Source of the DNA: Hyphomicrobiales bacterium
Lineage (GTDB): Bacteria > Pseudomonadota > Alphaproteobacteria > Rhizobiales > Rhizobiaceae
NCBI GenBank assembly: GCA_900467185.1
Contig: UBPA01000023.1
Span: 62,001 to 126,000, forward strand
Direction: 5' to 3'
DNA: 64,000 bases
Positions 1-12,955 of this stretch are shown piece by piece. The position numbers and the translations under genes are program-made. Positions within the stretch are counted from its first letter, which is position 1. Every line of letters starts with the position of its first letter. Under the pieces are notes generated by a model. It ran no database searches. It was not told the origin of the DNA and saw nothing but the letters and a program-made list of their open reading frames with translations.

Positions 1-647
1 CGGATGGACGAAGCATATCGCTGCGACCGGACAGGCGGGGAACGACGCGCGCCATGCTGTCGCTCCAGCAGCCACCGAATGGCGAGCAGCAATGGAGCGT
101 CGAGGAGCAGAAGGCCTATATGCGCCAGCGTTTCATGGATGCCGGCTGGCAGGCGCAAAGAGTGTTGGAGGCTATGGACGACACGGACGACTTCTACTTC
201 GACGTTTTGCGCCAGGTACGCATGAAGCGATGGTCGAAGGGCCGCGTCGTGCTCACCGGCGATGCTGCGTGGTGCGCAACACCCCTTGCCGGCATCGGCG
301 CAACTCTCGCCGTGACAGGCGGCTATGTTCTTGCCAGCGAGCTGCAGCGGAGCAGCGATATCGGGCAAGCCTTCTCCGCCTATGAGGACGCAATGCGGCC
401 AATGGTCAAGAAAGGGCAGGGCATCCCGAAGATTGCGCCCCGCATGATGAACCCCCACAGCCGGCTTGGCATCAACCTGTTGCACAATGTCCTCAATATT
501 GTGAGCCAGCCGATGATCCGCGGCCTTGCCGCCAAACTGTTCGCCAGCGAACCGGACGGACCGGATCTTTCGTGCTACCACGCGTTAGACCCATCATCAC
601 GGACTTCGACTCTCAGCATTTCCCAAAAGCTAACACGGTTGAATTGA
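1..647 (+). CDS. FAD-dependent monooxygenase, 5'-truncated by the window
   Basis: This is the C-terminal part of a flavoprotein monooxygenase of the PHBH/TetX-like class, which uses FAD and NAD(P)H to hydroxylate small substrates. The reading frame is already open at base 3. The motif GDAAWCATPLAGIGATLA is the conserved second FAD-contacting GD segment of this family, followed by the usual helix ending in LASEL. The family's usual C-terminus falls near LSCY (about base 582). The remaining 20 or so residues (HALDPSSRTSTL...) look like read-through into the flanking insertion-sequence remnant. The N-terminal GxGxxG dinucleotide motif lies outside the window. The substrate cannot be told. Confidence 0.8.
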   Translation, partial: DGRSISLRPDRRGTTRAMLSLQQPPNGEQQWSVEEQKAYMRQRFMDAGWQAQRVLEAMDDTDDFYFDVLRQVRMKRWSKGRVVLTGDAAWCATPLAGIGATLAVTGGYVLASELQRSSDIGQAFSAYEDAMRPMVKKGQGIPKIAPRMMNPHSRLGINLLHNVLNIVSQPMIRGLAAKLFASEPDGPDLSCYHALDPSSRTSTLSISQKLTRLN

Positions 648-649
648 TA

Positions 650-1221
650 GCGCTGCAGGAATATTGGCCAGCACTGGCGTTGCTTGGCAAAGTTATGAAT
701 GGCGTCGGTGTCATAGGCCTTGTCGGCGAGGATGGTCGCGCCGGGCCGTGGGTCATTTAACAGCTTTTCGGCCATCGGTGCATCGGCGGATTGGCCGGCG
801 GTGAGTTCCAACCGAACTGGTCTGCCATCTGCGTCGACAAGAGCGTGGATCTTTGTCGTCAGGCCACCGCGCGAACGTCCCATGCAAAGATCGGCAGATC
901 CCCCTTTTTCGCGTTGGCACCATGCTGGTGAACGCGCACGAGAAATGTCGATCATTAAGAGGTCGCCATCGTAACGCTTTGAAACAACGTCCTGAAGGCG
1001 ATCCCAGACGCCCGCCTTGCGCCAGCGGGAGAACCGATTGTAAAGCGTCGTGCGCGGACCGTAAGGCTCCGGCACATCTTGCAAAGACGAACCCGTCCTG
1101 AAACGCCACAGGATGCCGTTGATCACCCGGCGGTCGTCGACGCGTTCTATTTCACGGCTATTGTTCGGCAACACAGGTGCGATGATAGCCATTCTTTGTC
1201 GCTCAATTGATAGCGGCGCAT
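650..1221 (-). pseudogene. IS5-family transposase remnant, frameshifted and truncated
   Basis: The sequence matches a DDE transposase of the IS5 family (IS427-like group). Recognisable blocks are VDDRRVINGILWRFRTGSS, YGPRTTLYNRF, RWRKAGVWDRL, GRSRGGLTTKIHALVDADGR and ILADKAYDTDAI. The true N-terminus MRRYQLSDKEW begins at 1221 in a different frame from the following AIIAPVLP block, so there is a frameshift near 1185. Around 900-945 a pair of compensating frameshifts garbles the segment that should read VRVHQHGANAKK. The conserved C-terminal part with the catalytic Glu (about 70 residues) is missing after QRQCWPIFLQR near 650. It cannot be active. Terminal inverted repeats could not be identified. 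Confidence 0.85.
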
Positions 1222-1425
1222 GGCAATCTCCTTTCAAGGAGATGGAAACACACACCGTCAAAAAGATGAACCCCGTTTATGCGGATGCTGCATAGTCTTC
1301 GGCTATAGTGGTCAGAATCAACGGTTCGCCAGTTCGGTGCCGCCGGGGGCACCGTCCAGACTCATCATCTACACATTGTCCCTGCAGCGAAGACATCGTT
1401 CAATGGCGCTGACGGAAGACCCCAG

Positions 1426-2400
1426 TCAGACGTTCCTCTGCTGATCGCCAATCTCGGCCAACTTGGAAAATTCCGACGTGGCTTCTGCCCTGTTTCCCAA
1501 GTCGTCGAAATGGGCCTCGAAATACTGGCGCATGAGGATCGCCGTCATCGACGGGCTGCGCTGCGGATCGATGATGAGAGAGAGGGTAAGCGGTGGCAGG
1601 CCACGGTCGCTAAGAGGCAGATAGGCAAGACCGTTGTCATGTCGGGCCTCTGCGCCCTGTGACAGCGCGATCAGGCCAAACCCAACACATTCTCCAACCA
1701 TCGACCGCATGAGGTCAAGGCTATTGGTCGTCAGTACGGGCTGGAGCCGCGTTCCGGTCCGAGCGGCGGCGATATCGACGGCATCGCGAAGATGCGTGCT
1801 GGCATCGGGTATGATGATGGGATTCTGAAAGAATGCCTCAAGCGAGAGCGTCGTCTCCGCTGCGGAGACCGTGCCTGCCGGTACAACGGCATGCAGGTGA
1901 AAGGGAGCAGAGCGGGTTACGGTCACGCCCGGCAGCGGTCGAGGGCTGAACGTCAGCCCGAAATCGGCAAGCCCATCCAGGACAAGTTTACGAACCTGAT
2001 GGGACTCTGCAACGAGCACAGTGTTGCGAATACGCGGATGGTCGCGCATGAACCGGGCCATCGCACCCGGCAGGAAATCGAACACGGTTTCCTGCGAAAC
2101 GGCGATCTTGACCTCACCGCGGCGCAGGCCTTTCAGCTGCTCGATCTCGAACGTGATGCGAGAGAAATCCTTGCGCCATCCCTTGACGCCATGAATGAGG
2201 ATCTCGCCAGCCGCAGTTAGGCGCATGCCGCGCGGCAGCCGTTCAAAAAGGGCTACGCCCAATTCCTCCTCCGCGCGGATCAATTGCTTGTCTATGGCGG
2301 AAGCGGACACGTTCAGTTCCGCTGCCGCTTTCCGGATGGATCCGAGACGCGCGATCGCCTCGAGATACTGGGCGAAACGGGAGAAGAGCAGTCTGCTCAT
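1426..2400 (-). CDS. LysR-family transcriptional regulator
   Basis: This 324-residue protein has an N-terminal winged helix-turn-helix (RLGSIRKAAAELNVSASAIDKQLIRAEEELG region) and a C-terminal LysR substrate-binding domain (roughly residues 90-300). The start at 2400 (MSRLLFSRF) is preferred over an upstream in-frame start at 2469 because LysR proteins begin a few residues before the first helix. It is transcribed divergently from the phosphoribosyltransferase/ECF transporter unit, 110 bp away, so it is the likely regulator of that unit, perhaps responding to a purine-like ligand; the ligand is inference. Confidence 0.88.
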   Translation of the reverse strand: MSRLLFSRFAQYLEAIARLGSIRKAAAELNVSASAIDKQLIRAEEELGVALFERLPRGMRLTAAGEILIHGVKGWRKDFSRITFEIEQLKGLRRGEVKIAVSQETVFDFLPGAMARFMRDHPRIRNTVLVAESHQVRKLVLDGLADFGLTFSPRPLPGVTVTRSAPFHLHAVVPAGTVSAAETTLSLEAFFQNPIIIPDASTHLRDAVDIAAARTGTRLQPVLTTNSLDLMRSMVGECVGFGLIALSQGAEARHDNGLAYLPLSDRGLPPLTLSLIIDPQRSPSMTAILMRQYFEAHFDDLGNRAEATSEFSKLAEIGDQQRNV

Positions 2401-2510
2401 GGAAATCGACGTACCTGTGTTGAGAAAAAGGAAACGCACCGGACGGATCTTGATGTTTGTAAAAGTCACGCTGGCGATTGTCTATAGAGGCTTGCCGGGG
2501 AAGGACCCAC

Positions 2511-3200
2511 ATGAGCCCGAACATACCTCAGACCTTCAGCGTCGACATTGCAGGCGAGACGTTTGACCTGCCGATCATCTTGCTCAGTGATCGGCGTGCG
2601 ATAGCGCTGCTGATGGTGATCGAGATGGGCATACGATTCGGCGATCTCGTCGGCGATGCGATGGCGGCTCGGTTTGCCGCACTGAATCCCGATATTGTCG
2701 TGGGCAGCGCGACGCTCGGGATTCCCGTGGCAATTGAGGTGTCGCGCCGTCTCGGGCTGGACCAGTATGTCATCTTGCAGAAATCGCCAAAATTTCACCT
2801 CGCAGAAGCTTTGATCGAGGACGTGAGGTCCATCACCACGGGCGGATCTCAGCGGCTCGTGCTCGACAGGCGCTCCATCGCGCTCCTGCAGGGCAAGCGC
2901 GTGCTGGTCGTTGATGATGTTGTTGCGACCGGCTCCAGTATGGCCGCGGCGATCCGGCTGGTGCGACGCGCCGGCGCCGAGGTTGTGGGTGCCGGCGCGA
3001 TCCTGGCCGAGGGACGCAGCTGGCGCGCCGCACTGGGCCGGGATGCCGACCTCGTGACCACGCTCGGTCAGATCCCGCAGTTCGATATCGTCGACGGCAT
3101 CGCCATACCCGATGACGTAGTGGAAGATTTGGCGCGAACAGCCGCCGGCGACGCGTTCGTTCGGGACAACCGGAACGCCGCGGGTCGGTTTTCCGGCTAG
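2511..3200 (+). CDS. Type I phosphoribosyltransferase (purine/nucleobase-like), first paralogue
   Basis: This 229-residue protein carries the PRPP-binding loop VLVVDDVVATGSS at residues 131-143, the hallmark of type I phosphoribosyltransferases that join a nucleobase to PRPP. The segment ATLGIPVAI and YVILQKSPK resemble the adenine/xanthine PRTase branch. The start at 2511 is chosen because MSPNIPQTFSVDIAGE aligns with the second copy's beginning (VDVAGWSIDLPI); an in-frame start at 2478 would add 11 unlike residues. It is the first gene of a block that continues with an ECF transporter and ends with a paralogue at 6207. A role in trapping an imported base as its nucleotide is inferred from this arrangement. 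Confidence 0.85.
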   Translation: MSPNIPQTFSVDIAGETFDLPIILLSDRRAIALLMVIEMGIRFGDLVGDAMAARFAALNPDIVVGSATLGIPVAIEVSRRLGLDQYVILQKSPKFHLAEALIEDVRSITTGGSQRLVLDRRSIALLQGKRVLVVDDVVATGSSMAAAIRLVRRAGAEVVGAGAILAEGRSWRAALGRDADLVTTLGQIPQFDIVDGIAIPDDVVEDLARTAAGDAFVRDNRNAAGRFSG

Positions 3201-3424
3201 AGTTTGTAAGGGTACAAAGGGACGACAGCGTTCCTGAAGCGAGAATGCTTACGAAAACAGAGGGTTCTTCAGGAGCGGACCGAACCTGACCGGACCGTCG
3301 GGCAATAGAAGAGCAGGCGGACGGCCTATGGCCTTAACCGCCTTTGACAGACCATCAGGGAGGTCTCCCGGGGCGGGCGCCATGCCCAAAGACTGTTTAA
3401 TTCAACGCAAGGGGAACGATAAAA
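3201..3424 (+). promoter_or_regulatory. Structured leader between PRTase 1 and the ECF S gene (candidate cis-RNA)
   Basis: This 224-bp gap holds several nested inverted repeats: TCCTGAAG at 3232-3239 pairs with CTTCAGGA at 3267-3274; GGTTC at 3263-3267 could pair alternatively with GAACC at 3282-3286; GGCGG at 3316-3320 pairs with CCGCC at 3338-3342 around an inner GGCC-TAT-GGCC hairpin. The overlap of the first two stems allows switching. No known riboswitch consensus was recognised by eye. It may instead contain an ordinary promoter or an mRNA processing site. Confidence 0.4.
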
Positions 3425-3997
3425 ATGCAACAGACAACTCTCTCCCACAGTGAGGGCAACACCCTCTTTCCGCTCGTGCTTTCCATCGTCGCGGCCGCCG
3501 CCACCGGTGTGCTATGGGCCTATGCCAATCCGATCCAGCTTGTACCGGGCGTCATCCAGTGGCGAATCTTCGCCTTTCTTCCGCCGCTGATCGGCATCCT
3601 GCTCGGCTGGCGCAGTGGCTTCATCTGCGGCTATCTCGGCACGATCGTCTGGTCGCTTCTCGCCGGCACGTTTATTCCCGCCCATTCGCTGATTGTCGAC
3701 GGCATCATGGTCGGGCTAACGGGCCTTGTTCCGGGCGTCCTGTTTGATCCGGCAAAGACGACTTTCGACCGCACGGTTCTCGTCAAGATCGCGCTCGCCT
3801 GCCTGGCCGTCGGCGTTGTCATGGTCGCCGCCGTGTCCGCGAGTCTTGCCTATCTCGGCATCTTTCCGTTCTGGTGGGCTTTCGGTTATATCGGCCTGTC
3901 CGACATCGTGCCCATGGTCATCGGCACGCCACTGCTGATCGTCCCGGCCATGAAGATACTCAAGAGCGCCCACCCGGCGGGCTTCAAGCGCTTCTGA
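3425..3997 (+). CDS. ECF transporter S component (substrate-binding membrane protein)
   Basis: This 190-residue protein has about six hydrophobic segments (near residues 14-35, 43-60, 63-80, 90-108, 116-142 and 150-172) and a size typical of S components, which bind the vitamin or base and dock on the EcfT/ATPase module. It has no extracytoplasmic binding protein partner, consistent with an ECF system. The next genes encode a double ATPase and a T component, so this is a dedicated group I-type cassette. The specificity is not recognisable from the sequence. Its position between two phosphoribosyltransferase genes suggests a nucleobase or related heterocycle. Confidence 0.75.
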   Translation: MQQTTLSHSEGNTLFPLVLSIVAAAATGVLWAYANPIQLVPGVIQWRIFAFLPPLIGILLGWRSGFICGYLGTIVWSLLAGTFIPAHSLIVDGIMVGLTGLVPGVLFDPAKTTFDRTVLVKIALACLAVGVVMVAAVSASLAYLGIFPFWWAFGYIGLSDIVPMVIGTPLLIVPAMKILKSAHPAGFKRF

Positions 3998-4016
3998 GAC
4001 CAATCGGAAAGATCCA

Positions 4017-5540
4017 GTGCTCAAAATTACCAGCCTTCGTCTCGGTTTCGGCGGTCTCGATCCCGTGATCGCCGAGACGGATTGCCATCTGCAAGAAGGC
4101 CAGCGGCTCCTGATCTGTGGCGAGGCCGGCAGCGGCAAGACGACGTTTCTTGCCGCTGCCGCCGGCCTTATCCCGCGCCTGCTTCCGATCCCCGACTGTG
4201 CGGGCGAGGTCACGCTGATGGGCCGTCCGATTGCGTCTTTCGACAAGACCGAGCTTTTTTCCACCATCGCCTTCGTCTCGCAGAACATCGACGACCAACT
4301 CTGGGATCTCTGCGTGGAGGATGTCATCGCCTTCCCACTGGAGAACCGGGGCATCGGGAAACTGGTAATTCGCGAACGGTTGCGCACGCTGATCGCGGCC
4401 TTCGGGATCGAGGCTCTGTGCGGGCGCCGGGTTCTCACGCTGTCCGGCGGGGAGCGGCGCATGGTGGCGATCGCCGCGGCCCTTGCCGCAAGCCCCTTGA
4501 TTCTGGTCATGGACGAACCGACCACCGGCCTCGACCCGGCAGCGCGGGCGCGGCTTGCAGCACTTCTGCAAACGGTCGCGACGTCCGTCTCGTCCCTCAT
4601 GGTCGCCGAGCAGGATGCGCTGGCCCTCCTGTCGGTGGTTGACCGTATTTCGCTCCTGTCCGATCGCCGCCTGTCGCACCCCGTCCCCGCCGCCGACATA
4701 GTTTCAATCGATAGCCCCTGGCGGAATGCTGGCCTCCTGCCGCCGCGGCGGCAACGCTGCGTGCGTCCACCCGCTATTCTCGGGCGGCCTCTGCTGGAGG
4801 TGCGCGGCCTGACCACGCGGCTCGCGCGGCCCGGCGGTCAGCCGGTTCTCGAGGGGGTAAATGTCGAGATCCGCGCCGGCGAGGTTTTGGCCCTGATCGG
4901 GCGCAACGGCGCGGGCAAAACCACCCTCTTCAAGGCGATCCTCGGCCTTGAGAAGACCGCGGCCGGCACACTCCTTCTCGATGGAGCGGACGCCAACACG
5001 TGGACGGTTGCTACCCGGGCGCGAAGGATCGCTTACATTCCTCAGAACATGCGGCATATTCTGTTTAACATGACGGTGACCGGCGAGGTGATCTTCGCAA
5101 TTACAGCTGCAAGCGCCACCTCGACCGATCCCGACATTCTCACGCGGGCCGCAGCAGCGCTTGATCGCTACGGCCTGTCGGCCTTTGCCGAGGCCAACCC
5201 GTTTGTCCTGTCGGCCCGCCAGCAGGCGCTGCTCGGCCTTGCCTGCGCGGATGCGGCCGGCGCGATGATCGCCATCATCGACGAACCTCTTCTGGCCCGC
5301 GACCTCAAGGGCCGTCGCATGCTCGACCTCTTCATCGCCACCCTGCAGGAAAGCGGCCGCTCCGTCATGCTGATCTCGCACGACCTTGAACTGGTGGACG
5401 ATGTGGCGACCCGCATGATGATTCTTGACGACGGTGCGATCGTCTTTGACGGTGCGCTGGACGAAGGCTGGGATAGCGCGAGCTTCCTCCGGCTCGGCTG
5501 GCCGGCACCCTATCGCCAGACGGCAGGAGAGATCAGATGA
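4017..5540 (+). CDS. ECF transporter ATPase, two fused ABC domains
   Basis: This 507-residue protein contains two ABC ATPase domains in tandem. The first has Walker A GEAGSGKTT, signature LSGGERR and Walker B LILVMDEPTTGLD. The second has Walker A GRNGAGKTT and Walker B MIAIIDEPLL, but its signature position reads LSARQQ rather than LSGGQ, so the two sites are probably unequal, as in other asymmetric ABC pumps. The start is GTG at 4017, with GGAAAG at 4005-4010 as ribosome binding site. It follows the S gene by 19 bp and overlaps the T gene by 4 bp (ATGA), indicating coupled translation. It supplies the energy for the ECF importer. Confidence 0.9.
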   Translation: MLKITSLRLGFGGLDPVIAETDCHLQEGQRLLICGEAGSGKTTFLAAAAGLIPRLLPIPDCAGEVTLMGRPIASFDKTELFSTIAFVSQNIDDQLWDLCVEDVIAFPLENRGIGKLVIRERLRTLIAAFGIEALCGRRVLTLSGGERRMVAIAAALAASPLILVMDEPTTGLDPAARARLAALLQTVATSVSSLMVAEQDALALLSVVDRISLLSDRRLSHPVPAADIVSIDSPWRNAGLLPPRRQRCVRPPAILGRPLLEVRGLTTRLARPGGQPVLEGVNVEIRAGEVLALIGRNGAGKTTLFKAILGLEKTAAGTLLLDGADANTWTVATRARRIAYIPQNMRHILFNMTVTGEVIFAITAASATSTDPDILTRAAAALDRYGLSAFAEANPFVLSARQQALLGLACADAAGAMIAIIDEPLLARDLKGRRMLDLFIATLQESGRSVMLISHDLELVDDVATRMMILDDGAIVFDGALDEGWDSASFLRLGWPAPYRQTAGEIR

Positions 5541-6217
5541 ACGGGCTGCACGAGATCAATTTCTTTATCAAGCTTACCTTTGCCTTTGCTGTAATGCTGG
5601 TGGCTTGGCTGGTACCTGGCTGGCGCTTCGGCGTGCCGCTCGCGCTTCTGACGATCGCCTTCCTGTGGCTTGCCGGCGTGCCTGGCCTGCGCGGCTACAT
5701 CAAGGGCGCGCTGCTGTTGTCGGGTATGGTCGTCGTTAGTTGGCTGGTGAACCTGTGGCTGCAGGGTGCGACGACGGCCACAGCCCTGCCGATCGCCGCC
5801 GGCATGGCTGCGCGTCTGGTGACGACCACGGCCGCCTTCTTTTTTGTCATGGAAACCAGCACGCCCGGCTCGATCCTTGCGGCGTCAAGCGCTGCGCGTC
5901 TGCCGCCGGTCGTCACGCTCGTCCTGTCGCTGACCTTCGGCATTATCCCCATGCTGCGCGACGACTTCGAGCGCATCGCCGATGCCCAGCGCGCGCGGGG
6001 CATGGAGATCGATGACGTGAGCCTGGCGACGAAACTGCGTTTTGCGCTGGCGCGGGGCATTCCGCTTCTCGTTCAGGCCATTCGCATGGCGCACGCCATT
6101 TCCTTTTCGCTCGCGATTTACGGGTTCGACCTTAAACAAAAACGGACCACGTGGCGCACTGTCGGCCTTATGGTCGAACCTCGCATGAACATGAAGGACA
6201 ACGCCAATGACAGATGA
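5537..6217 (+). CDS. ECF transporter T component (EcfT, CbiQ-like)
   Basis: This 226-residue membrane protein has an N-terminal group of hydrophobic segments (about residues 10-110) and a cytoplasmic C-terminal region with the Ala-Arg-Gly coupling motif in AQRARGMEIDD and a second ARG in LARGIPLLVQAIR, both typical of EcfT proteins that link the ATPases to the S component. It overlaps the ATPase gene at its 5' end by 4 bp and the second phosphoribosyltransferase gene at its 3' end by 11 bp, so the whole block is one tightly packed transcription unit. Confidence 0.87.
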   Translation: MNGLHEINFFIKLTFAFAVMLVAWLVPGWRFGVPLALLTIAFLWLAGVPGLRGYIKGALLLSGMVVVSWLVNLWLQGATTATALPIAAGMAARLVTTTAAFFFVMETSTPGSILAASSAARLPPVVTLVLSLTFGIIPMLRDDFERIADAQRARGMEIDDVSLATKLRFALARGIPLLVQAIRMAHAISFSLAIYGFDLKQKRTTWRTVGLMVEPRMNMKDNANDR

Positions 6218-6851
6218 CCCCGCAGACGCAAAAACCGATCCGGCAACAGGGCAAAGCTGGCGCGTTGACGTAGCCGGCTGGTCTATCGATTTGCCGATCG
6301 TGGCGATCAAGCCGGACTTTGCCATTTCGCTGATGATGGTGATCGATCTGGGTGTTAACTTCGGTGCGCATGTTGGACAGGCTCTGGCAGCCAAACTCAA
6401 GGCGCTGGAGCCTGACATCGTCGTCGGCGCCGCGACGCTCGGCATTCCGGTTGCTATCGACGTCACCCGTGCTCTCGGTCTCGACGCCTATGTGATTCTG
6501 CAGAAGTCGCCGAAACTCCATCTGGCGAACGCGCTAGAACAGCGGATTTCATCGATCACATCTAAGGGCGAGCAGCGCCTTCTCCTCGACCGCGCGGCAG
6601 TTCCGCTGTTGAAGGGCAAGCGCGTCGTTGTCGTCGACGACGTCATCGCATCCGGTTCCAGCATGAAAGGCTCGCTGGACCTGGTTCGCAAGGCAGGCGG
6701 CGAAGTGGTTGGCATCGGCGTCATCCTAACGGAGGCGACTGAGTGGAAACCGGTGCTAGGCGCCGATGAGCAACTTGTCCACAGCCTCGCCCATATCCCC
6801 CAGTTTTCACCCGACCGGGACGGCACCTGGAAGCCGATTGCCGGGACATGA
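6207..6851 (+). CDS. Type I phosphoribosyltransferase, second paralogue
   Basis: This 214-residue protein is a paralogue of the 2511-3200 product: both share ATLGIPVAI, the LGLDxYVILQKSPK block and the PRPP loop, here VVVVDDVIASGSS at residues 140-152. The loop has Ser in place of the usual Thr of the ATGSS motif, a conservative change. The gene starts inside the 3' end of the EcfT gene (ATG at 6207, 11-bp overlap), so it is translationally coupled to the transporter. Two divergent PRTases may accept two related bases, or form a heteromer; neither can be decided from sequence. Confidence 0.85.
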   Translation: MTDDPADAKTDPATGQSWRVDVAGWSIDLPIVAIKPDFAISLMMVIDLGVNFGAHVGQALAAKLKALEPDIVVGAATLGIPVAIDVTRALGLDAYVILQKSPKLHLANALEQRISSITSKGEQRLLLDRAAVPLLKGKRVVVVDDVIASGSSMKGSLDLVRKAGGEVVGIGVILTEATEWKPVLGADEQLVHSLAHIPQFSPDRDGTWKPIAGT

Positions 6852-7108
6852 CGTCTGGGGCGTTGTCATTCACAGCGAGAGCCGATGGGAGACGTCGAGA
6901 GAGCGCTCAACCCACCACGAGAAGGGCCCGCAGCAGATCTGGGGCTGTGGGCACGTGTCTTGGCGGCATGAAAGGACGGCGCGCAGCATCGTTTGGACGC
7001 TGATCTGCCATCATACAACGCTGCTCGAAGACGCAGAAAGCGCGCCTGCCTATGACCGATCGTCGATGATCCGTTGTCCCTCGGCTCGGTCAGCTTTTTC
7101 AGCCAAAC
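6852..7108. other. Intergenic stretch without recognisable genes
   Basis: This 257-bp region lies between the end of the ECF/PRTase unit and the 3' end of the decayed anti-sigma gene on the other strand. No convincing terminator, RNA gene or coding sequence was seen. Confidence 0.4.
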
Positions 7109-7735
7109 TCACCACCGCAGCCAGAACCGGCCCATCAGACCACCAAGCGCCGTGCAGGTCTCGATACCGAGCGTGTACCAGAGGGCGACGAAAAGGGGAG
7201 GCCGTTTTCGATGCAGCCCCAGCTGTAGATCCAGGCGCCGAGCGTACCGGCGGCAACGCCGGCCATGGTGCCGGCAAGGGTGGGGCCGGTGGGAACGCTT
7301 CTGCGCAGGAACCAGAAGGTCGCCGCCATGAGAGGCGCACCGGTCGCAAGGATGATCAGCGGGCAATAGAGAGCGGAAATGCCCACGACGAGGCGGCCTG
7401 CCGCAGCTGCAAAACGGCGAGCGCGACAAGCAGCGCATGGACGATCGCACCTGGAGCGCGCTGCCAAGCGGCCGTCCGCCGGGCCGCGCCACGGCGATCA
7501 GCGCCCCGGGGCAGATGAGGGCGAGCAGCAGCGGATAGCCGGACTTGACCCAGAAGGCGGGGACGAAGAGGGGCGCACCGAGATCCGGCGGCAGCCCGTG
7601 GCCGAACAGAATGAAGGACGTGGAGAGAGCCATTTTCGGCAACAGCGCGCGGGCAAGGAGGCTTGCCAGCGCGTGAAGGCGCACCGGCCGGAGATCCCGC
7701 ACGAGTTTCTCGATCAGGTCATGATCTTTGTCATG
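7109..7735 (-). pseudogene. NrsF/DUF1109-type anti-sigma factor, multiply frameshifted
   Basis: Family-like blocks occur in three reading frames on the same strand. One frame gives DLIEKLVRDLRPVRLHALA and FWVKSGYPLLLAL...VARPGGRPLGSA. A second gives VHALLVALAVLQLRQAA. A third gives YCPLIILATGAPLMAATF, LRRSVPTGPTLAGTMAGVAAG and AWIYSWGCIENGLPF. The first frame then resumes with FVALWYTLGIETCTALGGL to the stop at 7109. Read together they rebuild a six-helix DUF1109 (NrsF) membrane anti-sigma factor. At least three indels are needed, so this is a pseudogene. It sits directly downstream of its cognate decayed sigma gene. Confidence 0.8.
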
Positions 7736-8238
7736 ATCGCCTCTCAATCTTGCCGCCAGCTCCTTGATCCCTCGGTGAATGCCGACCTTGACCATGCTTT
7801 CGGATCGTCCCGCACGCCGCGCGGCCTCGGTGATCGATCGGCCGTCGAGCCGCACCTGCCGGATCGCCTCGGCCCGCCAGGCGGGAAAACCGGCCAGCAG
7901 CCGCCGAATGTCCATCTGCGCCGATACAGCATCCTCGCGGCAGCCATCCGCCATCTCGTCCACCACCTCCGGCCCGACATGGCCGCGACCGCCCGACCTG
8001 CGGTGATGATCCACCAGCTTGTGGCGAGCGATGGGGAAGAACCAGGCCGTGAATGGCCGGTCGCGATCATAGGTGATCCGGCGCTGGTGCAGCGCAAGCA
8101 GCGTCTCCTGCACCAGATCGTCCACCTCGCTTCTATCCAACCTCCGAGGCGCCATCCGTAGTAGCGCTCCAGCAAGTGCCGGAGCACGGTGAGCAGGCAG
8201 CGATAGGCCGCCTCGTCCCCGTCGAGGGACAAGAGCAT
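7736..8238 (-). pseudogene. ECF RNA polymerase sigma factor, frameshifted
   Basis: The N-terminal part MLLSLDGDEAAYRCLLTVLR (from 8238) lies in one frame and the rest, SEVDDLVQETLLALHQRR (region 2.2/2.4), DRPFTAWFFPIARHKLVDHH (region 2) and SITEAARRAGRSESMVKVGI (region 4 helix-turn-helix), lies in another. The change of frame is near 8145, just after YYGWRLGG. Just upstream of 8238 the N-terminal frame is closed by a stop (8259 region), so the original start also seems lost. The pairing with a DUF1109 gene is the usual arrangement of this sigma group. Together they form a dead regulatory pair. Confidence 0.8.
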
Positions 8239-8546
8239 CAGTACCTTCAGCTCGGACTCGGGTTACATCTGGCATGTCTCTGAGGCTCATGCGGGGAGGC
8301 ATCGAAACGGTTACAGCGCACCTGAAAAAAGCGAGCGAATTCCTGGCACAATCACGTCCGCGTGATGGTTGTAACCGGATCGGCCTCCCGCCCGAATGAC
8401 TGTCCCGTGAGCATCGACGCAGCCCGCGTCCTGCACCTCCAGAGGAGACATCGCATCATCGCCGCCGCTGCCTCCGTCTTGCTCTCTCCTTGGGTGCGGC
8501 ACAGGCTCGGACCGCCACCGACGCCATGAAGAGCGTCCGGAAAGAG

Positions 8547-9587
8547 CTACTGCGGGTCGCCAGGGATCGTTTCCCTGACGCTGCTCCGTCGGATAACCAG
8601 CCCCGGCTTAACGTCTATCGCCATTGTGCCGGTGGCCCCATCGAGGAGATCCAGGATAAGGCTGCCTGTGCGCAGACCGATCTCGCGCGCATGGGCGTCG
8701 ATCGTCGTCAGCGTGGGTACGCAAATGGCGGCAATTTCGTAGTTGCCAAAACCTCCGATGGCGATCTGGTCCGGGACGACGATGCCACGTCGGTGGCATT
8801 CCGTGAGCGCTCCGAACGCAGAGAGGTCCGAAACGCAGATCACGGCGTCGGTGTCGGGGTGATCGTGCAAAAGCCGCGCCATGGCATCTGCACCCTCACG
8901 CATGGAAATCGGCGGTGCGCCAGCTGCGATGAGGCAAGGGTCATCGTGCCCATGGGATCTCATCGCAGTGATGAAGCCGCGCCGCCTGTCGCTGCCGCGT
9001 GTATCCCGTCCCGCATCGCCCCCGATAAAGGCGATCCGCCTATAGCCGATTGCAACAAAATGATCGACCATGGCACGCACGGCGTCCGCGTTCGAAAACC
9101 CGACATAGTGGCCAATCGGCTGGTCCGGGACGTCCCAGGTCTCGACCACCGGGATCCGTGCAATCTCCAGCAGGCGGCGCGCGCGCGCCGTATGGTGTCC
9201 GCCTGTGACCACGATCGCCTGGGGATTGCGCCGCAGAAGTTGCTCGATCAGCTGCTCTTCGACGTCCACGTCGTAATTCGTATAGCCGAGCAGGGTTTGC
9301 ATGTTTCGGCCAGAGAGGATCTCGGACAGGCCCGCGACCGTATCGGCGAAGTTCGCGTTGTTGATCGAGGGAATTGTCACCGCGACGAAGTCCGTCCTCT
9401 GCGAACGCAGGTTCGATGCCGCCGCGTGAAAGATGTAACCGAGCTCCTCGGCAGCCTCTAGGATAGCGCTGCGGGTTTCCGGGCTGATGACGCTATCGGC
9501 CTTCAGCGCGCGCGAGACCGTCATGGCGGACACGCCGGCCTTGCGGGCGACATCGCTCATCGTCGGCGATTTTCGATTGGGTTTCAT
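8547..9587 (-). CDS. LacI-family transcriptional regulator (GntR/IdnR-like)
   Basis: This 346-residue protein has an N-terminal LacI helix-turn-helix (MSDVARKAGVSAMTVSRALK, hinge near residues 50-65) and a periplasmic-binding-protein-like effector domain (residues 68-335) with the family pattern IAIGGFGNYEIA. It precedes a gluconokinase remnant, idnO, a 2-hydroxyacid dehydrogenase and idnD, so it is most likely the gluconate/idonate-responsive repressor of this locus. A perfect palindrome at 10883-10900 (TATGTTAT-CG-ATAACATA) resembles the ATGTTA-N4-TAACAT operators of the GntR branch and is its likely target. Confidence 0.9.
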   Translation of the reverse strand: MKPNRKSPTMSDVARKAGVSAMTVSRALKADSVISPETRSAILEAAEELGYIFHAAASNLRSQRTDFVAVTIPSINNANFADTVAGLSEILSGRNMQTLLGYTNYDVDVEEQLIEQLLRRNPQAIVVTGGHHTARARRLLEIARIPVVETWDVPDQPIGHYVGFSNADAVRAMVDHFVAIGYRRIAFIGGDAGRDTRGSDRRRGFITAMRSHGHDDPCLIAAGAPPISMREGADAMARLLHDHPDTDAVICVSDLSAFGALTECHRRGIVVPDQIAIGGFGNYEIAAICVPTLTTIDAHAREIGLRTGSLILDLLDGATGTMAIDVKPGLVIRRSSVRETIPGDPQ

Positions 9588-9691
9588 AGAGAGGGACTTA
9601 TTGTCAGGGTTACGACTCTCCTGCGCACTCCATCGCGTTTCTGTGTCAGGCGCAAGGGTGTGGCCGAAACGAAACGGGCTGCAGACGCCAG

Positions 9692-10079
9692 TCAGTCCTC
9701 GATCGTCTCCGGTAACGGCAGATCAACGCCGCTGGTCAGGGCCGCTTCGTCGCCGCCGGGTTGTTCCAGCGTGGCGAACTGGCTCTTGAGCAGGGAGGCC
9801 GGCGTGATGTGTCCGCGACCTTTCCCCATGTGGGAGGAGATCGGCCCCATGGAACCCGCGAGGTGGTACGACGCCGACGCCGTCGTGAGCCCGGTTGCGG
9901 ATGCGGTCCCGATGCGATCGCTTCAACGCCGAACGGTCGATGACCGTCGTGCCCGCGCCTGTCGCAAGGCGACCACCGTCGAAGAGTCGTCCGTCCAGCG
10001 CTGCGGCAAGCGCAGCGCCGACCATCGATTTGCCGCAGCCGGAAACACCGATGAACCCGATCTTGAAGATCGGATTCAT
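9692..10079 (-). pseudogene. gntK: Gluconokinase remnant with internal deletion and frameshift
   Basis: The gene starts at 10079 with MNPIFKIGFIGVSGCGKS, the P-loop of gluconokinase, and continues VGAALAAALDGRLFDGG. The substrate segment that should follow (about 40 residues) is absent: the frame passes directly to VIDRSALKRSHRDRIR, the later CSALKRxYRDxLR motif. Downstream the homologous C-terminus (YHLAGS, FATLEQPG, LPLPETIED then stop at 9692) is in a different frame. It therefore carries both a deletion and a frameshift and should be inactive. It lies 2 bp from idnO, so it was the second gene of that unit. Confidence 0.82.
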
Positions 10080-10080
10080 G

Positions 10081-10839
10081 TCAGAGCGAGGCGGTGATGC
10101 CGCCATCGACATACAGGATATGGCCGTTGACGAAGGAGGACGCATCGGACGCAAGAAAGATGCAGGCGCCGACCAATTCCTCGACCTTTCCCCAGCGGCC
10201 GGCCGGTGTGCGCTTTTCCAGCCATGTCGAAAACGCCTCGTCGGCAACCAGCGCTGCGTTCAGCGGCGTGTCGAAATAGCCGGGTGCGATGGCGTTGCAT
10301 TGCAGGCCGTGCTTCGCCCAGTCTGTCGCCATGCCCTTCGTCAGATTGCCGACGGCACCTTTGGTCGCGGTGTAGGGCGCGATGCCGGAGCGGGCGAGTG
10401 CCGTCTGGACGCTTGCGATGTTGATGATCTTGCCGGCACCCCGCGCGATCATGTGGCGGGCAACGGCCTGGCCGACGTTGAAGACGCTCGACACGTTGGT
10501 GCGCAGCAGCCTCTCGAAAGCGTCGGCCGGAAACTCTTCCAGCGGCGCGCGATACTGCATGCCGGCATTGTTGACGAGGATATCGATCGGGCCGACTTCG
10601 GCCTCGTACCGATCTACCGCCAGGCGCGCCGCTGGATGATCCGTGGCGTCGAAGGCGAGATGGTCGACCGGTGTTTCGAATTGCGCGGCCGCTGCCGAAA
10701 GCTTCTCCGTATCGCGCCCGTTCAGGACGATGCGCGCACCGGCAGCCCGCAGGCCATGGGCAAGCGCAAGGCCAATTCCCTGCGAGGATCCGGTGATTAG
10801 AGCCCGTTTCCCGGACAGGTCGAACAGCCGCACCGACAT
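10081..10839 (-). CDS. idnO: Gluconate 5-dehydrogenase-like SDR
   Basis: This 252-residue short-chain dehydrogenase has the NAD(P) motif TGSSQGIG at the N-terminus, NNAG near residue 88, and the YTATK catalytic Tyr-Lys pair near residues 155-159, with a C-terminal YVDGG segment. The length and the segments NVSSVFNVGQAVARHM and GYFDTPLN fit IdnO, which interconverts gluconate and 5-ketogluconate. The neighbours (LacI regulator, gntK remnant, idnD) support this. The exact sugar acid remains inferred. Confidence 0.85.
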   Translation of the reverse strand: MSVRLFDLSGKRALITGSSQGIGLALAHGLRAAGARIVLNGRDTEKLSAAAAQFETPVDHLAFDATDHPAARLAVDRYEAEVGPIDILVNNAGMQYRAPLEEFPADAFERLLRTNVSSVFNVGQAVARHMIARGAGKIINIASVQTALARSGIAPYTATKGAVGNLTKGMATDWAKHGLQCNAIAPGYFDTPLNAALVADEAFSTWLEKRTPAGRWGKVEELVGACIFLASDASSFVNGHILYVDGGITASL

Positions 10840-10882
10840 GATCTTCTCCTGATGTCTCTCGACAAAGTCTTCTCGTTACGGT

Positions 10883-10900
10883 TATGTTATCGATAACATA
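10883..10900. promoter_or_regulatory. Perfect 18-bp palindromic operator, GntR-like
   Basis: TATGTTAT-CG-ATAACATA lies between the divergent idnO and hydroxyacid dehydrogenase genes. It fits the ATGTTA-N4-TAACAT operator form of GntR/IdnR-type LacI regulators, one of which is encoded at 8547-9587. One site here could control both divergent units. Confidence 0.75.
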
Positions 10901-10962
10901 CTCTGTCAAGCCATTCCCAGAACATGCGGGCCCTGAGCACGAAAGCCCCAAACGCGAGAGCC

Positions 10963-11913
10963 ATGATGACAAAGCCGCAGATCCTTCAGGTCGGTCCCTA
11001 TCCGGAATGGGACGAGAGTCCCCTGAACGCCGCGTTTGCGGTCCATCGCTATTTCGAAGCAGCGGACAAGCAGGCCTTTCTGGCCGAGATCGGGCCGAAC
11101 ATCAGGGGCATCGCGACGCGTGGCGAACTGGGCGCCACCCGCGCCATGATTGAGGCCTGCCCGAACCTCGAGGTCATCGCCGTCTATGGCGTCGGCTACG
11201 ATGCGGTCGATCTCGCCACCTGCCGGGAAAGGGGCATCAACGTGACCAACACGCCGGACGTGCTGACCAAAGACGTGGCGGATCTCGGCGTTGCCATGAT
11301 GCTCTGCCAGTCACGCGGCGTCATCGGTGCGGAAACCTGGGTGCGGGATGGAAGCTGGGCCGGGCGAGGTCTCTATCCCCTGCGCCGGCGGGTCTGGGGC
11401 CGTCGTGCCGGCATCCTGGGCCTCGGCCGCATCGGCCTGGAAGTGGCAAAACGGCTGAAGGGCTTCGATATGCAAGTCGCCTACAGCGGCACCCGGCCCA
11501 AGCCTGAGGCCGATGGCCTGACATTCGTAGCCGATCCTGTCGCGCTGGCGCGGGACGTGGATTTCCTGTTCGTCACGCTGGCGGCATCCGCCGAAACACG
11601 CCACATCGTCGGCCGCGAGGTCATCGCGGCGCTCGGGGCTGATGGCATGCTGATCAACATCTCCCGTGCGTCCAACATCAACGAGGACGCGCTGTTGGAC
11701 GCCCTGGAGCAGGGAACGCTTGGCTCGGCGGCACTCGACGTGTTCGAGGGCGAGCCCGCGCTCAATCCGCGCTTTCTGGCGCTCGACAATGTCCTCCTCC
11801 AGCCGCATCACGCTTCGGGAACCATCGAGACCCGCAAGGCTATGGGGCAGCTGGTTCGCGACAATCTGCAGGCGCACTTTGCCGGCGCGCCGCTTCCGAC
11901 CCCGGTCCTGTGA
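10963..11913 (+). CDS. D-isomer-specific 2-hydroxyacid dehydrogenase (2-ketogluconate/hydroxypyruvate reductase-like)
   Basis: This 316-residue protein has the Rossmann motif GLGRIGLEVAKRL, the catalytic Arg in NISRASN, Glu in DVFEGEP and His in LQPHHASGT, the triad of D-2-hydroxyacid dehydrogenases. Its length and position 10 bp ahead of idnD suggest a GhrB-like reductase acting on 2-ketogluconate, glyoxylate or hydroxypyruvate. ATG at 10963 or 10966 is preferred over 10924, which would add unlike residues across the operator region. It is divergent from idnO across the palindromic operator and therefore likely co-regulated. Confidence 0.85.
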   Translation: MMTKPQILQVGPYPEWDESPLNAAFAVHRYFEAADKQAFLAEIGPNIRGIATRGELGATRAMIEACPNLEVIAVYGVGYDAVDLATCRERGINVTNTPDVLTKDVADLGVAMMLCQSRGVIGAETWVRDGSWAGRGLYPLRRRVWGRRAGILGLGRIGLEVAKRLKGFDMQVAYSGTRPKPEADGLTFVADPVALARDVDFLFVTLAASAETRHIVGREVIAALGADGMLINISRASNINEDALLDALEQGTLGSAALDVFEGEPALNPRFLALDNVLLQPHHASGTIETRKAMGQLVRDNLQAHFAGAPLPTPVL

Positions 11914-11923
11914 GGTTGCCGTC

Positions 11924-12955
11924 ATGAAAGCCATCATCGCTCATGCCGCAAAGGATCTCCGCATCGAGGAGATGGCGGACGAACAGGCCGGTCCCGGCGA
12001 GGTCCGGCTGCGCCTTGCTACCGGCGGCATCTGCGGCAGCGACCTGCACTACTATCATCACGGCGGCTTCGGCGCAGTGCGGCTGAAGCAGCCGATGGTC
12101 CTCGGCCATGAGGTTTCCGCCTATGTTGAGGCTCTGGGCGGAGGCGTTGACGGGCTGGAGGTCGGAGACCTGGTCGCCGTGTCGCCATCCAGGCCGTGCC
12201 GTACGTGCACATATTGCCAGCAAGGCCTGCACAATCAGTGCATGAACATGCGTTTTTACGGCAGCGCCATGCCGTTTCCGCATATTCAGGGCGCGTTCCG
12301 CGAGACCCTCGTTGCGGACGCTTACCAATGCATTCCCGCCGGCGATCTGTCGCCTGGCGAAGCGGCCATGGCGGAGCCGCTGGCGGTGGTCTTGCATGCG
12401 ACGCGCCGGGCGGGAGACCTGCTCGGCAAGCGGGTGCTCGTCACCGGCTGCGGCCCGATCGGCGTGTTGTCGATCCTGGCTGCACGGCGTGCCGGTGCCG
12501 CGGAGATCGTGGCGATCGACCTTTCCGACTTCACGCTCGCGATGGCAAAGTCAGCCGGCGCCGACCGGACGATCAATACGGCACGCGAACCCGATGCGCT
12601 GGCGCCTTATGCAGTGGACAAGGGCACATTCGACGTTCTTTACGAATGCTCGGGGGCTGCACCAGCGTTGCTCGGCGCCATTCCCGCCCTGAGGCCGCGC
12701 GGCATCATCGTCCAGCTCGGCCTCGGCGGCGACATGACCCTGCCGATGACGGTGATCACCGCCAAGGAGTTGGACCTGCGTGGCTCGTTCCGCTTCCACG
12801 AGGAGTTTGCCACGGGCGTCGCGCTGATGCGCAAGGGCTTGATCGACGTCAAGTCGCTGATCACGCACACCGTTCCGCTCGACCATGCTCTCTCCGCATT
12901 CGACATCGCCTCCGACCGTAGCCGGGCGATGAAGGCGCAGATCGTGTTTTCCTGA
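11924..12955 (+). CDS. idnD: L-idonate 5-dehydrogenase-like zinc alcohol dehydrogenase
   Basis: This 343-residue medium-chain dehydrogenase has the catalytic zinc ligands in GGICGSDLHYYHHGGFG and GHEVSA, the structural zinc cysteines in CRTCTYCQQGLHNQC, and the NAD motif GCGPIGVL. The DLHYYHHGGFG segment is characteristic of IdnD, which oxidises L-idonate to 5-ketogluconate. It is downstream of the hydroxyacid dehydrogenase and near idnO, forming an idonate/gluconate branch. The start at 11924 is in agreement with the family N-terminus MKAIIAHAAKDLR. Confidence 0.88.
   Translation: MKAIIAHAAKDLRIEEMADEQAGPGEVRLRLATGGICGSDLHYYHHGGFGAVRLKQPMVLGHEVSAYVEALGGGVDGLEVGDLVAVSPSRPCRTCTYCQQGLHNQCMNMRFYGSAMPFPHIQGAFRETLVADAYQCIPAGDLSPGEAAMAEPLAVVLHATRRAGDLLGKRVLVTGCGPIGVLSILAARRAGAAEIVAIDLSDFTLAMAKSAGADRTINTAREPDALAPYAVDKGTFDVLYECSGAAPALLGAIPALRPRGIIVQLGLGGDMTLPMTVITAKELDLRGSFRFHEEFATGVALMRKGLIDVKSLITHTVPLDHALSAFDIASDRSRAMKAQIVFS

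Follow-up and report, generated by a model that had tools for sequence, protein, structure and literature searches.

The locus examined here raises the question of what an ECF importer carries when its genes travel with genes for phosphoribosyltransferases (PRTs). The window, by which we mean the whole stretch of 64,000 nucleotides that was analysed, comes from a soil bacterium of the Hyphomicrobiales, and it contains, in this order, a divergent LysR gene, a first PRT gene (PRT1), the S component, a fused double ATPase (A), the T component and a second PRT gene (PRT2), all six ORFs being open (Table 1). To our knowledge, ECF importers carry vitamins, metals, amino-acid-like compounds and 7-deazapurines, and an ECF-PRTase system was not found in searches of the open PMC literature. 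The answer towards which we lean, by a little more than an even chance, is that this ECF importer brings in a purine base, or a close analogue, which PRT2 traps as a nucleotide.

Organization of the locus

The six genes, their order and the divergent LysR were found as described in an earlier reading made from the sequence only. That reading had also placed them in one tightly overlapping unit, and the overlaps of 4 bp between the ATPase and T genes (5537-5540) and of 11 bp between the T and PRT2 genes (6207-6217) are real, but these three genes alone are so joined; between S and the ATPase gene there is a gap of 19 bp and between PRT1 and S one of 224 bp, so that PRT1 lies outside the tight unit. 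Across the loci the length of the gap between PRT1 and S varies (27-460 bp), and on visual inspection its sequence is shared only among close relatives. The most likely start of LysR is the ATG at 2400 and, given this start, the intergenic region between LysR and PRT1 is 110 bp.

Table 1. Features of the LysR-PRT1-S-A-T-PRT2 locus in the window
Feature	Position	Strand	Basis and remarks
LysR-family regulator	1426..2400	-	Pfam LysR_substrate 113.8 bits, HTH_1 64.4 bits; ORF extendable to 2469
Conserved block, LysR-PRT1 intergenic	2417..2465	.	GTTGA-N7-GAAAC half-dyad at 2419-2435; candidate LysR site
PRT1, type I phosphoribosyltransferase, accessory paralogue	2511..3200	+	Pfam Pribosyltran 62 bits
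Leader between PRT1 and S, 224 bp	3201..3424	+	No Rfam match, no sigma-54 site
S component, 190 aa, six helices	3425..3997	+	AF2 model pTM 0.81; Foldseek
Fused double ECF ATPase	4017..5540	+	Two ABC_tran stretches (Pfam); signatures LSGGE / LSARQ
T component, EcfT/CbiQ type	5537..6217	+	Pfam CbiQ 63.8 bits (cut-off 25); two A-R-G motifs
PRT2, conserved phosphoribosyltransferase of the unit	6207..6851	+	Pfam Pribosyltran 60.4 bits; AF2 pTM 0.89

Conservation of the unit

Relatives were collected by S alone, which gave 69 loci, 65 from alphaproteobacteria and 4 from cyanobacteria, and several of the host genomes are those of rhizobia. The conserved core is S-A-T-PRT, with an open PRT after T in 68 of the 69 loci. 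Since this S-only search yielded A, T and PRT downstream of S in all 65 alphaproteobacterial loci, the arrangement is not due to chance. The cyanobacterial loci have A, T and PRT at 28-45% identity, except that in L076 the PRT is present only as a fragment, and the median identities in the four loci were 59% for S, 28% for A, 34% for T and 35% for PRT; thus A, T and PRT are much more diverged than S, yet the PRT stays after T. The neighbourhood in which a PRT flanks the ECF genes on both sides, which the sequence-only reading had put forward for a conservation check, was kept in part: PRTs are not missing near the relatives, but the upstream PRT1 is found, together with LysR, in only 25 of the 69 loci (26 when the window is added). 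The idea that a PRT on either side defines the system was not borne out, as the core has one PRT and PRT1 goes with the LysR version. Beyond the unit, the neighbours were common transporter, dehydrogenase and lineage-bound clusters, and no pointer to the substrate was seen among them.

Two predicted forms of upstream control

The single-PRT form has predicted sigma-54-type promoters and the other form has LysR and PRT1. A -24/-12 element at a fixed distance before S was predicted from sequence, with a consensus and scoring that were conventional or our own, in 35 of the 44 loci that have no PRT1 and in none of the 26 PRT1 loci, the window included; the background was 1 of 174 downstream gene starts and 145 of 13,800 random windows. 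No gene for a sigma-54 activator was found among the called ORFs by a two-motif search, no convincing NtrC boxes were found with a consensus for such boxes, and dyads shared upstream of the sigma-54 sites did not rise above shuffles. Among the 69 loci, a LysR relative scoring >100 bits precedes S only where PRT1 is present (25 loci) and in L070. The block between LysR and PRT1 (window positions 2419-2464) is conserved in 23 of the 26 PRT1 loci (a number that includes the window, the source of the query), where it scored above all 100 shuffles, the other three loci being L018, L043 and L066; with its half-dyad, the block is a candidate LysR site. A riboswitch before S was considered and rejected, as an Rfam search of positions 1-12000 of the window at E up to 1 gave a weak snoRNA match below the gathering score as its sole match. 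The split between sigma-54 control and LysR with PRT1 suggests that alphaproteobacteria of soil and sea use bases as a source of nitrogen, and expression of the unit would be expected to rise under nitrogen limitation or on a LysR signal.

The transporter components

The sequences predict the architecture of an ECF importer, that is, a T component with coupling motifs and a pair of ABC ATPase domains. The signature of NBD1 in the double ATPase is LSGGE and that of NBD2 is degenerate (LSARQ), the matches to the ECF_ATPase models of NCBIfam fall below cut-off, and two Walker A motifs are present in 53 of 56 called ATPase ORFs. Of 49 T ORFs searched with a loose pattern, 34 had at least two A-R-G motifs, 9 had a single one and 6 had none. 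When the S component of the window was compared with the PDB by Foldseek, ranks 1-22 were all ECF S components with a probability of 0.80-1.00, although at E 0.007 to 0.9 and 11-20% identity; the model argues for an ECF S fold, in a family that carries no curated assignment. Invariant residues of S include N35, Q38, Q45, W46, R47, W76, H87, D92 and D160, and an S 86% identical to that of the window is encoded on a plasmid record of Rhizobium tropici CIAT 899. The S component did not fall in a known vitamin or metal clade, judged by the scores of NCBIfam and Pfam models and by a PDB sequence search: no NCBIfam S-family model was matched over cut-off and none at E 0.01 by the S of the window, which also had no match in the PDB sequence search. 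Below cut-off, the best NCBIfam models over 30 S members were the FolT-family (E 0.0004) and riboflavin S-component (E 0.001) models, the best in Pfam was ECF-ribofla_trS (E 0.00014), and QueT of Pfam was not matched by any of the 30. We group the unit with the Group I-like ECF transporters, in which an S, a T and ATPases of their own are encoded together; it shares with them the S fold, a CbiQ-type T with A-R-G motifs and two ABC ATPase domains, whereas here the S has no family match, the ATPases are fused with a degenerate second signature and a PRT belongs to the unit. The S component of Rhizobium etli 8C-3 is annotated as an 'aminotriazole resistance protein'. This label was rejected as a clue to function, the papers found for the phrase being concerned, by title, with fungi and in one case a fungal virus.

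The phosphoribosyltransferases

Both enzymes have the type I phosphoribosyltransferase fold with the PRPP loop, whose core residues V143, D144, D145, V146 and G150 are invariant in 33 PRTs, and in Pfam the Pribosyltran domain is the sole domain of PRT2. PRT1 and PRT2 are 59% identical over 189 aa, so that they are paralogues as had been claimed, but a recent tandem duplication is not supported by the tree, in which PRT1 and the upstream PRTs of 24 further loci form a single clade; the two are old, separate paralogues. The nearest curated models are PRK06031 (NF004689; PRT1 128 and PRT2 114 bits, cut-off 175) and PRK07322 (128 and 119 bits, cut-off 143), and against TIGR01090 (adenine phosphoribosyltransferase) the PRTs scored 45 and 42 bits with a cut-off of 185.85. 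PRK06031 has members in the same bacterial order.

Among the best 50 of 1227 fold matches of the PRT2 AF2 model, the closest solved folds were Thermus APRT2 (5zgo), 7f06 and Thermus APRT, followed by E. coli APRT and B. subtilis XPRT; the 50 consist of adenine or xanthine PRTases, 7f06, 1vch, a PRTase-related protein with no named substrate, and PurR, a repressor with a PRTase fold. The entry 7f06 is an adenine phosphopsicosyltransferase which we take to be AgmE. AgmE has been reported to form AMP from adenine and PRPP (PMC8599513). PRT2 is 30-32% identical to the solved chains of Thermus APRT2 and 7f06; unlike them, it is tied to an ECF importer, and PRT1 and PRT2 both score below the APRT family cut-offs. 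By sequence and by modelled fold, PRT2 is nearest to the purine PRTases.

Proposed function

The base import-and-trap system put forward earlier is upheld as regards the enzyme, as purine-type chemistry of PRT2 is supported by its sequence, its fold and the neighbourhoods of its cousins, but that the ECF transports the base is something we infer. In the proposed mechanism, the cargo of the S component would be a purine nucleobase, whether adenine or some other purine, or a near analogue, the fused ATPase would power this uptake through the T component, and PRT2 would join the incoming base to PRPP to give a nucleotide that is unable to leave the cell, so that trapping would pull uptake and feed salvage. 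The base used by the PRT would be the base carried by S, and PRT1 may cover a second base or may have a regulatory or assembly role. In xpt-pbuX of B. subtilis a PRTase is likewise paired with a base importer, under purine and nitrogen control; the importer there is a secondary permease and here an ECF ABC importer. We put at slightly less than an even chance a wider proposal, namely that canonical purine nucleobases are a new ECF substrate class, served by a primary ABC-type pump obligately paired with a purine PRTase as a vectorial trap, with conserved asymmetric ATPase sites and with two interchangeable controls, a one-enzyme form under sigma-54 and a two-enzyme form with LysR and a second specialised PRTase. 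If this is true, the cargoes of the ECF type would gain a new class, canonical nucleobases, and an S family with no assignment in NCBIfam or Pfam would gain a function. Because importer and PRTase are strictly paired, metabolic trapping can be tested directly, and the unit would be a test case for the role of a conserved degenerate ATPase site in an ECF importer.

Gene neighbourhoods and the nature of the substrate

PRT cousins of the PRK06031 type have adenine deaminase and nucleoside hydrolase genes within 5 kb in 6 of 25 loci and none of these genes in 16 of 25. The deaminases and hydrolases in these loci score above Pfam cut-offs and below NCBIfam cut-offs, and the best models of the hydrolases include pyrimidine-specific ones; therefore the cousin neighbourhoods do not fix the base. 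The PRTs of the window differ in this respect from PRK06031, for deaminase and hydrolase probes, which were derived from five of the examined loci, gave no hit in the sequences flanking 75 S-bearing loci (1.43 Mb, some loci being counted twice). This result counts against the proposed cargo, as does the canonical APRT that the genome encodes elsewhere.

An unlikely reading is that the importer carries, in place of a housekeeping base, a modified purine or a heterocycle resembling one (a cytokinin base, 7-deazapurine, methylxanthine or azole), which the PRT ribosylates for detoxification, use or catabolism. A canonical APRT is already encoded elsewhere in the host genome, rhizobia are among the hosts, and a SLOG-family gene separates LysR from PRT1 in L018 and from S in L070; LOG-type enzymes free cytokinin bases from nucleotides. 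The angustmycin pathway of AgmE yields a compound with cytokinin activity (PMC8599513), and the QueT/QrtT types of ECF carry 7-deazapurines, the precursors of queuosine (PMC11130926). The latter are like the present unit in importing a purine-like base, but the S members lack a QueT match and no PRT is described in the available part of the account of the QueT/QrtT pathway. The SLOG gene was seen only in L018 (with its copies L005 and L125) and L070, and the deaminase and hydrolase beside some cousin PRTs point to ordinary bases.

A further reading, distinctly unlikely, is that S carries a vitamin or precursor and the PRT is a sensor of PRPP or nucleotide that acts as a regulator or transporter partner and traps nothing. 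The shared fold of PurR and the faint likeness of S to the FolT-family and riboflavin models are consistent with it, but the invariant PRPP-loop core, the absence from PRT2 of any second Pfam domain, the position of S below the cut-off of every vitamin family and the lack of an Rfam riboswitch in the searched part of the window all argue against it. The least likely is that the ECF imports a nucleoside from which a hydrolase encoded elsewhere frees the base for salvage by the PRT, which would agree with the hydrolases beside the 6 cousins and in L112 but not with the lack of any hydrolase match around the S-bearing loci.

The purine-base reading is favoured by L112, where the neighbours of a PRT 75% identical to PRT2 are a nucleoside hydrolase, an ABC importer of the Bmp (PnrA-like) type and an ECF other than the present one; against it stand L113 and L114, in which near PRT relatives lie, by eye, amid apparently sugar-type genes with no ECF. 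A molybdenum-hydroxylase FAD match in L018 is weak (35%) and 10.8 kb off, and in six loci of the Brucella group a CDA-fold deaminase is nearby.

Organization and distribution of the unit

The unit is well supported as an ECF importer with a co-conserved phosphoribosyltransferase (PRT) of the purine type. The 4-bp and 11-bp overlaps of the sequence-only reading exist, but they are confined to the fused double ATPase (A), the T component and PRT2, and 224 bp separate PRT1 from the S component, so that the tightly overlapping unit is shorter than had been proposed. Downstream of the LysR gene lies an ORF (575-1261, minus) that looks like an IS5-like transposase and adjoins a truncated-looking, monooxygenase-like ORF (54-647), both names being presumptive readings of the translations; ORFs at 7744-8302 (minus) resemble an RNA polymerase sigma factor region.

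Genes of the unit in the window
Feature	Position	Strand	Domain match
LysR-family regulator gene, divergent	1426-2400	minus	
PRT1	2511-3200	plus	Pfam Pribosyltran
S component	3425-3997	plus	no match above cut-off
Fused double ATPase	4017-5540	plus	two ABC_tran stretches (Pfam)
T component	5537-6217	plus	Pfam CbiQ
PRT2	6207-6851	plus	Pfam Pribosyltran

When genome contigs were scanned for S, with patterns that were derived from one sequence and favour close relatives, 69 loci (L-numbers below) were obtained. A, T and a PRT follow S in all 65 alphaproteobacterial loci, and the four cyanobacterial loci all have matches to A, T and PRT, that to PRT in L076 being a fragment only. Downstream of T, 68 of the 69 loci have an open PRT longer than 170 aa, L076 being the exception, and the downstream PRT of L071 looks frameshift-shortened. 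PRT1 and LysR are present in 25 of 69 loci, and in four of the other 44 (L059, L060, L065 and L076) less than 2 kb precedes S, so that LysR or PRT1 could lie past the contig end or the stored stretch. Two flanking PRTs, earlier taken as the hallmark of the system, thus give way to a core with one PRT, the second accompanying LysR control. Within the order, 5 of 297 genomes carry S, the window's own genome counted, and S is also present on six plasmid records; among 398 sampled genomes from the phylum and 292 from the cyanobacterial phylum to which L079 belongs, only the centre genome itself matched. The S-bearing system is sporadic, and this spread together with the plasmid records is compatible with horizontal transfer. 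A SLOG-family (PF18306) gene lies between LysR and PRT1 at L018:8634-9233 and between LysR and S at L070:9358-9990 (30.2 bits for L070), and L066 has a similar stretch of 31 residues. In six Brucella-group loci (L033, L035, L037, L044, L048 and L049), a CDA-fold deaminase that matches Pfam dCMP_cyt_deam_1 and is below the cut-off of the TadA model lies some 2.3-2.5 kb ahead of S.

The importer proteins

The AlphaFold2 model of S, made from 30 natural relatives, had a pTM of 0.81 and a mean pLDDT of 84.5. In a Foldseek search of the PDB, ECF S components filled ranks 1-22 (probability 0.80-1.00, E 0.007 to 0.9, identity 11-20%), by title those for folate, thiamin, riboflavin, pantothenate and biotin, and the matches included 4huq/4hzu, which we take to be HmpT. 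By sequence, no PDB chain matched the S profile at E up to 10, and neither Pfam nor NCBIfam gave anything above cut-off for the window S. Among the 30 members the best models were weak, namely the FolT family (E 0.0004) and a riboflavin S component (0.001) in NCBIfam, and in Pfam DUF2232 (4.6e-5) with a pair of broad S-component families (1.4e-4 and 2.8e-4); QueT was absent from the Pfam matches. Because of these fold matches and the weakness of the curated-model matches, the protein is predicted to be an ECF S component and its specificity is left unassigned. S is highly conserved, its median identity to the window being 83% over the 65 alphaproteobacterial loci and 58-60% in the four cyanobacterial ones, where the medians for A, T and PRT are about 28%, 34% and 35%. 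In Rhizobium etli 8C-3 (L009:10001-10573) S is annotated as 'aminotriazole resistance protein', a label whose origin was looked for and not found.

In the fused ATPase, the NBD1 signature is LSGGE or LSGGQ in 56/56 ORFs called, and that of NBD2 is LS[A/S/V/T]R[Q/E] in 51/56, the rest being other variants with LSGGQ in none. Across these ORFs the asymmetry is conserved in the window and its relatives, with a degenerate second signature. Among solved structures, an ECF ATPase is represented by 4hlu.

Two types of phosphoribosyltransferase

PRT1 and PRT2 are 59% identical. In a tree of 76 rows that included 46 of 71 downstream PRTs (window counted), the 25 upstream PRTs, from 24 loci and the window, with L066 missing from the set, formed one clade (support 100/98), and the single PRTs from four Bradyrhizobium loci and from L070 nest with it (100/96). 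A separate group (96/90) takes in the PRT2 rows together with most single PRTs. The tree therefore does not support a fresh duplication, and the window operon joins two old PRT types. Core PRPP-loop residues are invariant across 33 PRTs, and both window PRTs fell below every cut-off of the APRT, PRK07322 and PRK06031 models. The nearest solved folds to the PRT2 model (pTM 0.89) were Thermus APRT2 (5zgo), 7f06 and Thermus APRT, followed by E. coli APRT and B. subtilis XPRT. The entry 7f06 is listed as adenine phosphopsicosyltransferase and is presumably AgmE. AgmE converts adenine and PRPP to AMP (PMC8599513). A canonical APRT is encoded elsewhere in the same genome.

Candidate upstream control elements

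In 35 of the 44 loci without PRT1, the S start is preceded at 25-60 bp by a sigma-54-type element; many of these loci are close kin and do not amount to 35 independent cases. The search used the consensus TGGCACG-N4-TTGCW, and the scoring was devised for this analysis. The remaining nine loci are L059, L060 (site weaker), L062, L069 (site farther upstream), L070 and all four cyanobacterial ones. The element was found in 0/26 PRT1 loci (window counted), at 0/61, 0/63 and 1/50 starts of A, T and PRT2, respectively, and in 145 of 13,800 random windows. Between LysR and PRT1, a 46-base block (window 2419-2464) beats 100 shuffles in 23/26 PRT1 loci, and L070 has LysR and lacks both PRT1 and the sigma-54 element. 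Sigma-54 in such bacteria usually means nitrogen control. Since no NtrC box or local sigma-54 activator was found at these loci, nitrogen control of the unit is put forward here as a possibility.

PRT relatives and the probable cargo

Our best inference, which we favour by a little, is import of a purine base followed by its trapping by the PRT. No published ECF-PRTase system was found in the open literature searched. A PRT profile matched in 32 of the 297 genomes of the order, and the weaker 25 of these matches are cousins of the PRK06031 type (two were scanned, both over that cut-off). With neighbour probes drawn from these same 25 loci, some of them on short contigs, an adenine deaminase and a nucleoside hydrolase were found within 5 kb in six and a molybdenum-hydroxylase FAD subunit in three; 16 had none of the three. 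The scanned deaminases and hydrolases were over Pfam and below NCBIfam cut-offs, and the models matched by the hydrolases include pyrimidine-specific ones. These pyrimidine-type models and the 16 empty loci slightly lower our confidence in a purine cargo and its trapping. The deaminase and hydrolase probes gave zero matches in 1.43 Mb around S-bearing loci, which is the background and, equally, a negative result for the direct link.

Eight genomes exceeded 300 bits with the PRT profile, five with S and three without it (L112, L113 and L114). The L112 PRT, 75% identical to PRT2, is flanked (L112:1739-14748) on one side by a nucleoside hydrolase and a Bmp (PnrA-like) ABC importer and on the other by a second, different ECF importer, the S component of which is nearest to NF045596 (CD3073 family; 125.5 bits, cut-off 180). 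This neighbourhood may be a second case in which an ECF importer is tied to base salvage. The PRTs of L113 and L114 are surrounded by apparent sugar-type genes, as judged by eye.
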